64,000 nt of DNA from Streptomyces sp. WMMC940 (GTDB lineage: Bacteria; Actinomycetota; Actinomycetes; Streptomycetales; Streptomycetaceae), in contig NZ_JAPZBC010000001.1 of NCBI RefSeq assembly GCF_027460265.1, forward strand, positions 3,968,501 through 4,032,500, given 5' to 3'. This document shows positions 8,565-52,981 of the stretch, one piece after another. Below the pieces are notes generated by a model that had not been told where the DNA came from, searched no databases, and saw nothing but the letters and a program-made list of their open reading frames with translations. The stretch's first letter is position 1, and each line of letters opens with the position of its first letter. A program made the position numbers and the translations under genes.

Positions 8565-8637
8565 AGCGGACGACGAGATTCGAACTCGCGACCCTCACCT
8601 TGGCAAGGTGATGCTCTACCAACTGAGCCACGTCCGC
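8565..8637 (-). tRNA. tRNA-Gly (GCC), second copy
   Basis: The minus strand folds into a standard tRNA with acceptor GCGGACG/CGTCCGC, anticodon loop TTGCCAA (GCC), T-loop TTCGAAT and discriminator U. CCA is not encoded. It differs from the copy at 4422-4497 in the anticodon stem and acceptor-proximal bases. Confidence 0.95.
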
Positions 8638-8715
8638 ATTGCTCCCGCTCAGCTCTCACTGGCGGTGCGTCCACCACTGTACCCGATCCACCGAGGTGGT
8701 CGGTACGTGGTGCGG

Positions 8716-8787
8716 AGCGGGTGACAGGAATTGCACACTGCGCCTTCCCTCTGGAAGAGGGCTGTTCTACTACTGAACTACACCCGC
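8716..8787 (-). tRNA. tRNA-Gly-like gene (UCC) with aberrant D and T loops
   Basis: On the minus strand a 72-nt tRNA shape can be drawn: acceptor GCGGGTG/CACCCGC, discriminator U, D stem GTTC/GAAC, anticodon loop CTTCCAG (anticodon UCC). Two conserved features are missing. The D loop is AGTAGTA, so the G18 of the usual GG pair is A. The T arm has GTGCAATT where TTCRA is expected, and the T stem pairs only weakly in the standard register or with a one-base shift (GCAG with CTGT). The anticodon stem also has a G-A mismatch at its outer end. It is co-oriented with and 78 nt upstream of a normal tRNA-Gly. Either it is a decayed tRNA gene or a specialised glycine carrier not meant for the ribosome. 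Confidence 0.7.
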
Positions 8788-8836
8788 ACGCTCCGTGAGG
8801 TCCGGCCCTCCGGCCTCGCCCCTCGGCGTGATCCAG

Positions 8837-8867
8837 ACTTTAGCCCACCTGCGGGGGTGCAGCGCAA
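8837..8867 (-). promoter_or_regulatory. Possible promoter of the tRNA-Gly pair
   Basis: Reading leftward, TTGCGC (8867-8862) and TAAAGT (8842-8837) are 19 nt apart and lie about 50 nt before the tRNA-Gly-like gene. The match is moderate. Confidence 0.35.
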
Positions 8868-8923: not shown

Positions 8924-9253
8924 TCAGCTCGCCTCCCGGAAGGCCTCGTAGACGCGCTTGGGGATCCGGCCGCGCGCCGGCACGTCCATCTTGTTGGACT
9001 GCGCCCAGGCCCGGACGGCGGCCGGGTCCGGGGCGAGGTCGGTACGCCGGTACTCCTTGCGCGGCCGGCCGGCGTGCCGGGCCGCCTTGCGTCCCGCTGC
9101 CATGTAGGGCGCGAGGGCGGTGCGCAGTTTCTTTGCATTGGCGGGATTGAGGTCGATCTCGTACGACTTCCCGTCCAGCCCGAACGAAACCGTTTCCGCC
9201 GCCGTTCCGCCGTCGATGTCGTCGAAGAGCGTCACCACTACGCGCTGCGCCAC
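8924..9253 (-). CDS. Lsr2-family nucleoid-associated protein
   Basis: A 109-residue H-NS-like xenogeneic silencer. The N-terminal oligomerisation domain begins MAQRVVVTLFDDIDG and contains TVSFGLDGKSYEIDL; the C-terminal DNA-binding domain includes AVRAWAQSNKMDVPARGRIP, whose RGR is the AT-hook-like motif that reads AT-rich minor grooves. Both domains and the length fit the family. From memory of S. coelicolor gene order this position holds the second Lsr2 paralogue (LsrL) rather than the main Lsr2; I cannot prove it here. GTG start with AAAGGAC upstream. Its own upstream region is unusually AT-rich with two inverted repeats, which suggests autoregulation. Confidence 0.93.
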   Translation of the reverse strand: MAQRVVVTLFDDIDGGTAAETVSFGLDGKSYEIDLNPANAKKLRTALAPYMAAGRKAARHAGRPRKEYRRTDLAPDPAAVRAWAQSNKMDVPARGRIPKRVYEAFREAS

Positions 9254-45525: not shown

Positions 45526-45848
45526 CGGGCGGGGCGCCTCCCCGAAGGGCGCTTCGGTGCCGATGCGGCATGTGGCATGTGGGGCGTGAGGGCTGGCTGA
45601 GAAGCGCGATGCCACGGAGCGTAATCGAAGGAAAGCCCTCCGCATAACAAGTGACGAACTATCAGAACCTCCGGCCCGAATGAAGGCCCATCAACTTGTC
45701 CGTTTCAGGGCTGTTGTTGCAGGTAAGTCCTGGCCAACGTCCTTAACGATCAGTCGGAACGGCTTGGAATCCGAGCTCGGTCTCTATTAACGTTCGATAA
45801 CGCAGCGCGGTCGTCCCAGCCGTCGTCGGAGACGGCACCGTGCGCACG

Positions 45849-45959
45849 CGCCGAATCCCGCAAGGGAACCGGGGAACCAACCATTGGGGTGAATCGGGCA
45901 CTTCGCGGTGCCCGTAGGAGACCTTCCTGCTCCGAACCCGTCAGCTAACCCGGTAGGCG
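45849..45959 (+). ncRNA. ydaO-type c-di-AMP riboswitch
   Basis: The leader of the M23 peptidase contains the ydaO/yuaA consensus in order: GAATCCCGCAAGGGAACCGG, GGAACCAA, TTGGGGTGAATCGGGC, a variable hairpin, and the terminal CCGAACCCGTCAGCTAACCC followed by GGTAGGCG. Ends are set by the short P1 pairing CGCC/GGCG. ydaO RNAs bind c-di-AMP and usually switch expression off at high ligand; in Streptomyces they sit before cell-wall hydrolase genes. The aptamer ends 12 nt before the ribosome-site purines, so control may act at termination or translation. A GGAAC...GTCT pair near 45756-45783 is a possible SigE-type promoter (weak). Confidence 0.95.
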
Positions 45960-45985
45960 AGAAGGAAGGAAAGGAGAACGCCTCC

Positions 45986-52256: not shown

Positions 52257-52981
52257 GCGCCACCCCTCGACACACAGACGGCCGCCGGGCATCCGCTTCC
52301 GGCGTTCGCTCCGCCCTCCCCACGGGGGGACAACTCCCCGGAAGCCGGACGCAAGAGCAGGTGTCCGAGCCCCCGGGAATATTCACCCCCCGAGGAGAAC
52401 AGCAGTGACACACAGGGTAGTTCGCCGCATCCCGACCGTTAAGAGGCGGTGTTCCGTATGGCGAGATTGTTGTGTGTTCGGGCGGGAGCCCCTTCCCGAC
52501 CGTGCTCCGGGCATGTGGCCGTGCGCCCGTCCGTGCGCTCTCGTCCCGCCGCCGGGGGAGCGCTTCCATGAGTGCTGCGTGGGTCGGCCCATCGGCGAGG
52601 GATCCGATGGGCTGGGGGACACCGCCGCCTCAATCCCCGCGGGCGGCGGACCGGTCCGGGAGGCGAGTGCCGCCTCCCGGACCGTGCGCCTGTGTCCGTT
52701 CCTTTCGGTATGTCCCGCTCCTCGTGCTCTTCAAGTTGGCCGAATGTCGCTCCTTCGGCCGCGTTTCGCGCGCCGCGCCGGTGCCGCCCCGTTCCGGGCC
52801 GTCGCCCGCGCCCGGTCCCCGAGCGGCCGGGTGGTCCCATGTGGCCCTTGCCAGGGGCGCGTTCACTTTCCGCGCCCGCGACCCGGAGCCCCTCCCGTGC
52901 GCCCTTGTCGTGGCAGCATGTCCTCATCGGGGTGTACCGAATCGGGTGTGCCGAAAGTTGTCCACAGGCTGTGGAGGCGCG
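52257..52981. promoter_or_regulatory. Long divergent intergenic region with hairpins
   Basis: About 725 nt with no supported gene between divergent regulator and synthetase-like genes. A perfect 14-bp stem with 5-nt loop lies at 52652-52684, and CCCATCGG-N8-CCGATGGG at 52588-52611. Towards the plus-strand gene it holds a DnaA-box-like nonamer. Confidence 0.55.
52958..52966 (+). promoter_or_regulatory. DnaA-box-like nonamer
   Basis: TTGTCCACA, an exact match to the Streptomyces DnaA-box consensus, 15 nt before the ATG at 52982. CCACAG-GC-TGTGG overlaps it as a palindrome. Confidence 0.45.

Follow-up and report, generated by a model that had tools for sequence, protein, structure and literature searches.

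The genome of Streptomyces sp. WMMC940 carries, beside its normal glycine isoacceptors, an aberrant tRNA-Gly(UCC) gene with a recoded elbow and a bulged T stem, and this gene is conserved across Streptomyces; among the explanations weighed here, a dedicated glycyl carrier accounts for it best, a reading that we favor tentatively from sequence comparison. The gene lies in a 64,000-nt stretch of DNA, hereafter called the window, on the minus strand, flanked upstream by an Lsr2-like gene and downstream by an ordinary tRNA-Gly(GCC) (Table 1). It has a 7-bp acceptor stem, a 4-bp D stem, a UCC anticodon arm, and U73. The coordinates, strand, UCC anticodon, D loop AGTAGTA, and GTGC motif given in a preliminary description of this DNA were all confirmed, as was the loss of G18, with position 18 being A while G19 stays.

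Table 1. Features of the aberrant tRNA-Gly(UCC) locus (positions are those of the window)
Feature	Position	Strand	Remarks
Aberrant tRNA-Gly(UCC) gene	8716..8787	-	72 nt, CCA not encoded
D loop AGTAGTA	8768..8774	-	A at position 18 (8771) replaces G18
Anticodon UCC	8753..8755	-	Read from sequence
T stem 5' strand GCAG-U-G	8736..8741	-	Bulged U at 8737; partner 8724-8728
T loop TGCAATT	8729..8735	-	G55 at 8734 replaces U55
-10-like element TAAAGT	8837..8842	-	Family consensus TAGAGT; conserved block in upstream alignment
TTGCGC, partner of TAAAGT	8862-8867	-	19-nt spacer; putative promoter
GGCCGGAGGGCC, conserved short inverted repeat	8804..8815	-	Putative 5' leader, from the upstream consensus
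Ordinary tRNA-Gly(GCC) gene	8565..8637	-	Neighbor at most loci read
Lsr2-like protein gene (presumed name, from its sequence)	8924..9253	-	Upstream neighbor; anchors the locus across the family

The gene is easily missed by general tRNA searches. Rfam RF00005 scored it at 47.5 bits, the lowest among nine tRNA matches in the window (the whole genome has 66), and ARAGORN run on the window did not report it at 8716-8787. Model R1, whose alignment includes this very sequence, gave it 98.3 bits and gave the ordinary CCC and UCC tRNA-Gly of this genome 66.2 and 65.5 bits. Rfam matches in the window also included a c-di-AMP riboswitch (45839-45974, 104.8 bits) and the Streptomyces sRNA Scr4115 (52577-52686, 101.8 bits). 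Among the 65 tRNAs called by ARAGORN in the genome (fetched stretches plus the window), GTTCRA was present in 65/65 and the D-loop GG in 64; the aberrant tRNA lacks both features of an ordinary elongator, having GTGC instead of GTTCRA and AG instead of GG. The sole ARAGORN-called tRNA without the D-loop GG, located within L001-L036, is a tRNA-Leu(UAA), presumably of the bldA type. The universal GTTCRA of these 65 tRNAs, together with a BLAST match to the aberrant gene in each of 121 congeners (see below), argues that the odd form is not due to chance. The normal tRNA-Gly genes of the genome comprise one UCC, one CCC, and three GCC; the normal UCC isoacceptor that the preliminary description had proposed to look for is thus present as one gene, and the aberrant tRNA is an extra one beside the normal set.

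To define the aberrant form, we compared 58 distinct sequences, which stand for 253 instances from 221 loci, some genomes contributing more than one locus; the search expression that collected them fixed the two gene ends and the 3' strand of the T stem. With position 18 left free and position 55 limited to G or T in this expression, positions 18/55 were A/G in 53/58 sequences and G/U in 5/58, mixed combinations being absent; position 18 is hence replaced in 53 of the 58, while G19 is present in all of them. The five G18/U55 sequences belong to two genera that group together, so the change between the two elbow forms may represent one evolutionary event. In these two genera (loci L166-L171) the T-stem bulge coexists with a normal G18/U55 elbow, showing that the two aberrations are separable.

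If the variable loop is given its usual length of 4 nt, the T stem reads as G49-U65, C50-G64, A51-U63, G52-C62, and G53-C61, a bulged U sitting between positions 52 and 53, and it is closed by a T loop with the consensus T54 G55 C56 R57 A58 T59 Y60. All five pairs are complete in 57/58 distinct sequences, the exception, from L165, having its bulge one step off. What had been described as poor T-stem pairing is therefore a stem of five pairs interrupted by a single bulge. An unbulged register, which formed only 2 of 5 pairs in 58/58 sequences, was dropped; an alternative hairpin, GCGC-AGU-GUGC, was also rejected, its four pairs being intact in 50/58 sequences and broken in 8, among which are all five G18/U55 sequences. 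Within the stem, A51-U63 occurs in 58/58 sequences (the search expression fixed U63 and permitted A or G at position 51), and position 49-65 is A49-U65 in 6/58 and G49-U65, the strong form, in the other 52, including the window copy.

The remainder of the molecule is well paired. The acceptor, D, and anticodon stems are fully paired in 55/58 distinct sequences and have one unpaired position in the other 3, and positions 32/38 form a Watson-Crick pair in 58/58 (C-G in 31, U-A in 27), with position 32 limited to C or T and position 38 free in the search expression. Absent from the preliminary description is a G.A mismatch at the top anticodon-stem pair 27-43 of the window copy, a pair that is U-A or C-G in most relatives. 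RNA folding, which leaves out tertiary contacts, placed the aberrant cloverleaf at a median of 6.4 kcal/mol above the predicted minimum and favored another local hairpin over it; the cloverleaves of the ordinary CCC and UCC tRNA-Gly of the genome were 2.1 and 2.8 kcal/mol above their minimum.

We examined conservation by BLAST with positions 8700-8800, which gave matches in 121/121 sampled same-genus genomes, assigned to Streptomyces by likeness to named records, at 82-100% identity (best match); ordinary tRNA-Gly match this query at 73-75%. Loci were read for 70 of the 121 (30 + 40), while the other 51 stand on BLAST alone, apart from a few that were also scored by R1. The D loop and T arm are near-invariant among congeners. 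In a set drawn at family level (163 segments, of which 151 are distinct), pairwise identity averaged 0.905 within the gene, compared to 0.67 at -60..-1, 0.38 at -150..-61, and 0.51-0.52 on the downstream side. Among 24 sequences selected from the loci read, 99.6% of the stem cells were paired and 5 pairs were changed on both sides; the covariation score and the percentage paired were reached by 0/500 shuffles and the count of double-changed pairs by one of 500, whereas the "further pair types" measure was reached by 500/500. Because the T-stem pairs are invariant across the 24 sequences, they carry no information on compensation. G1-C72, C2-G71, and U73, which we take to be the GlyRS identity bases for glycylation, are likewise invariant. 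Altogether, the conservation across Streptomyces with compensatory stem changes, named in the preliminary description as a check on its proposal, was borne out, and the flank-like divergence and uncompensated stems expected of a pseudogene were not seen.

In several species the gene is repeated in tandem, as triples in 4 loci of the batch of 40 (L071, L076, L077, and L081) and as pairs in L067, L068, L082, and L083; in the four triples, copies 1 and 3 show anticodon stems of CCCCC type, and copy 2 has CCCTC. Upstream, the family alignment revealed a conserved block in which a short inverted repeat accompanies a TTGC.../TAGAGT pair, suggesting that the tRNA may have its own promoter; a generic sigma-70 scan found no promoter.

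The distribution of the aberrant tRNA was determined with R1, which gave 86-105 bits to the odd form and at most 74 to others among the matches listed. It was detected in 28/28 same-genus and 0/268 other genomes of a class draw (among the matches listed, best first), in 45/45 same-genus and 0/15 other-family genomes of an order draw, and in 49/61 genomes and 15/17 genera of a family draw. A pattern search for GTGC tRNA-Gly in the 268 other-genus class genomes, some of which are only 60-90% complete, found none, the pattern needing a GTAG-type D arm and a CC anticodon end such that other forms could escape it. Within the genomes searched, the odd form was encountered in Streptomycetaceae only.

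Of the 12 genomes in the family draw that lack the tRNA, 8 belong to one genus, Kitasatospora by likeness (99.9% DNA identity at one locus), and 3 to another, nearest to Peterkaempfera (84.6 and 82.2% DNA identity). The twelfth, G434 (L188, L192, L200, and L235; 99% complete), yielded neither purL nor the aberrant tRNA, and the stretch is probably missing from the assembly; G423, of the same genus, has both. A genus-wide pattern search in Kitasatospora found the tRNA in 0/61 genomes. In a scan of named records, covering the best 80 of at least 463 relatives, with likeness to a Kitasatospora query as the ranking criterion and a taxon mix that is hence not representative, the tRNA was absent from 29/29 loci at the Kitasatospora/Peterkaempfera end, which still hold one or two tRNA-Gly(GCC) genes, and present in 51/51 loci of Streptomyces, Streptacidiphilus, Actinacidiphila, Wenjunlia, and allied taxa. 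Ten of the 29 loci without it come from records labeled Streptomyces, which nevertheless sort with those of Kitasatospora. In a quick tree built from four neighboring proteins (55 rows, 13 forks open), at least three presence/absence changes were required, two of them forced by well-supported branches, which fits a single early gain within the family and loss on one or two occasions. The origin of the tRNA would lie within Streptomycetaceae or at the root of this family, perhaps in a copy of tRNA-Gly(CCC) type; the Kitasatospora and Peterkaempfera-like lineages would have lost it later and would have to make do with ordinary Gly-tRNA.

The peptidoglycan bridge of Streptomyces is a single glycine, and one open frame for FemAB is present in the genome. 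A cell-wall component coupled to FemX would be expected to co-occur with FemAB. In the family draw, FemAB was found in 60/61 genomes, i.e., 48/49 carriers of the tRNA and 12/12 non-carriers, with a FemAB protein in 8/8 Kitasatospora genomes. In the class draw of 296 genomes, FemAB was found in 138 and the tRNA in 28; 110/268 other-genus genomes have FemAB, none of them with the tRNA. Phyletic co-occurrence in both directions was not observed, and a strict coupling to FemX is unsupported. A search for FemX positions separating carriers from non-carriers gave 0 sites (6 versus 23 best hits, with >55% identity as the sole criterion of orthology), and no positional link of the tRNA to femX was found in the genome. 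According to Table 1 of PMC8092295, Kitasatospora viridifaciens muropeptides bear DAP-linked Gly, the Gly-less forms amounting to 0.69% and 1.00% of wild-type monomers; the named loci examined for the tRNA came from relatives other than K. viridifaciens itself. As these muropeptides carry glycine, we dropped meso-DAP walls as the cause of the absence. FemAB in all 12 non-carriers and in 138/296 class genomes, together with this wall composition, suggests that a glycine bridge does not in general require the tRNA. The cell-wall role first proposed finds support in part, as a possible supply route; against an exclusive role stand the Kitasatospora genomes, which have FemAB and lack the tRNA, and the bridge glycine of K. 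viridifaciens.

The function most likely to reconcile these data, as judged from sequence, is that of a retained non-standard glycyl carrier that feeds FemX yet is not essential for it. A promoter of its own would drive the tRNA, and GlyRS, for which the recognition bases are intact, would charge it. The A18/G55 elbow, the bulged T stem, and A51-U63 would make it a poor substrate for EF-Tu and the ribosome, an escape from translation that is argued by parallel with Staphylococcus aureus. The free pool of Gly-tRNA so created may then serve a transferase outside the ribosome. The likeliest user is the one FemAB-family (FemX-like) enzyme of the genome, and this enzyme would attach the bridge glycine to the precursor of peptidoglycan. 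Because the spread of FemAB and the K. viridifaciens wall argue against a requirement, our confidence in a dedicated carrier stays somewhat below even. It is possible, and we propose it with caution, that Streptomycetaceae evolved, independently of staphylococci, a translation-excluded tRNA-Gly with a bulged T stem and recoded positions 18/55 for the peptidoglycan bridge, which Kitasatospora and Peterkaempfera-like lineages later dispensed with.

The tRNA might instead have a non-ribosomal or regulatory part in a Streptomycetaceae process other than FemX, either serving a different transferase that depends on Gly-tRNA or acting in the sensing of uncharged tRNA, and the departure of the phyletic pattern from that of FemAB is in keeping with such a role. 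PMC12945691 describes DhpK and Orf11, enzymes of Streptomyces natural-product pathways, as users of Gly-tRNA. Pathways of this type, however, are described from individual producers, whereas the tRNA has a match in 121/121 congeners, and no partner gene turned up for it short of a systematic gene-content comparison; we regard a role outside FemX as rather unlikely. Somewhat less likely still is a specialized GGA elongator that binds EF-Tu less strongly and has a constrained anticodon loop, serving, for instance, slow or condition-specific translation. An intact UCC anticodon, stems without an unpaired position in 55/58 sequences, the retained G19, C56, and A58, and the normal G18/U55 elbow of two genera would all suit an elongator. 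Against it, the genome already has a normal UCC tRNA-Gly, the bulged T stem and GTGC are unlike its ordinary tRNA-Gly genes, and C32-G38 closure (31/58) would shorten the anticodon loop, which is expected to hinder decoding. Simple decay, the other option of the preliminary description, is very improbable: the low general tRNA score, the lack of an ARAGORN call, the 27-43 mismatch of the window copy, and the absence from Kitasatospora and Peterkaempfera-like genomes are outweighed by gene identity far above that of the flanks, compensated stem changes, and retention in 49/61 family genomes, on which grounds the pseudogene reading was in the main refuted.

According to PMC4052509, how aminoacyl-tRNA is diverted from the ribosome to the wall is in most cases somewhat unclear. 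A dedicated glycyl carrier in Streptomyces would make this question testable outside staphylococci, with a conserved tRNA that can be removed in laboratory strains and is naturally absent from sister genera, and with a natural elbow pair, A18/G55 versus G18/U55, on the same bulged T stem. It also illustrates that a conserved gene can escape a standard tRNA finder.

The non-proteinogenic tRNA-Gly of S. aureus, like the tRNA studied here, has GTGC replacing the GTTC motif. The sections of PMC4052509 reviewing Giannouli et al. (2009) describe three such isoacceptors with A49-U65, A51-U63, and changed positions 18/19, which are considered weak EF-Tu binders that supply the cell wall (PMC4052509; also PMC9976931). 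By these accounts, the likeness extends to extra genes beside the normal ones, to a D-loop GG altered at position 18 (A18 in 53/58, with G19 kept), and, in place of the strong EF-Tu pairs, to A51-U63 in every sequence and A49-U65 in 6/58, the window copy excluded; unlike the S. aureus tRNAs as described there, the Streptomyces form changes G18 only, has a bulged T stem, and pairs 32/38 in Watson-Crick fashion in 58/58. Its sequence kin are the Streptomyces tRNA-Gly, and the resemblance to S. aureus, whose tRNAs were compared by description, would thus be convergent. With the ordinary Streptomyces tRNA-Gly(CCC)/(UCC) it shares the acceptor, the D-stem frame, the discriminator U73, and C35/C36 (over 74 query positions it is 75% identical to the genome's CCC gene), and it differs from them in A18, G55, the T-stem bulge, A51-U63, and a length of 72 versus 71 nt. 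The FemX/VanK route of Streptomyces coelicolor, named in PMC4052509, would be the consumer of its glycine, through the one FemAB open frame of the genome; the passages of that review on the subject describe no dedicated tRNA for this route, and FemAB occurs also in relatives without the tRNA. A literature search, limited to open-license papers and to the matches listed and so weak evidence of novelty, found no description of it. Non-proteinogenic tRNA-Gly are already known; if the function holds, what this tRNA adds to them is the T-stem bulge, the recoded positions 18/55, and the actinobacterial setting.
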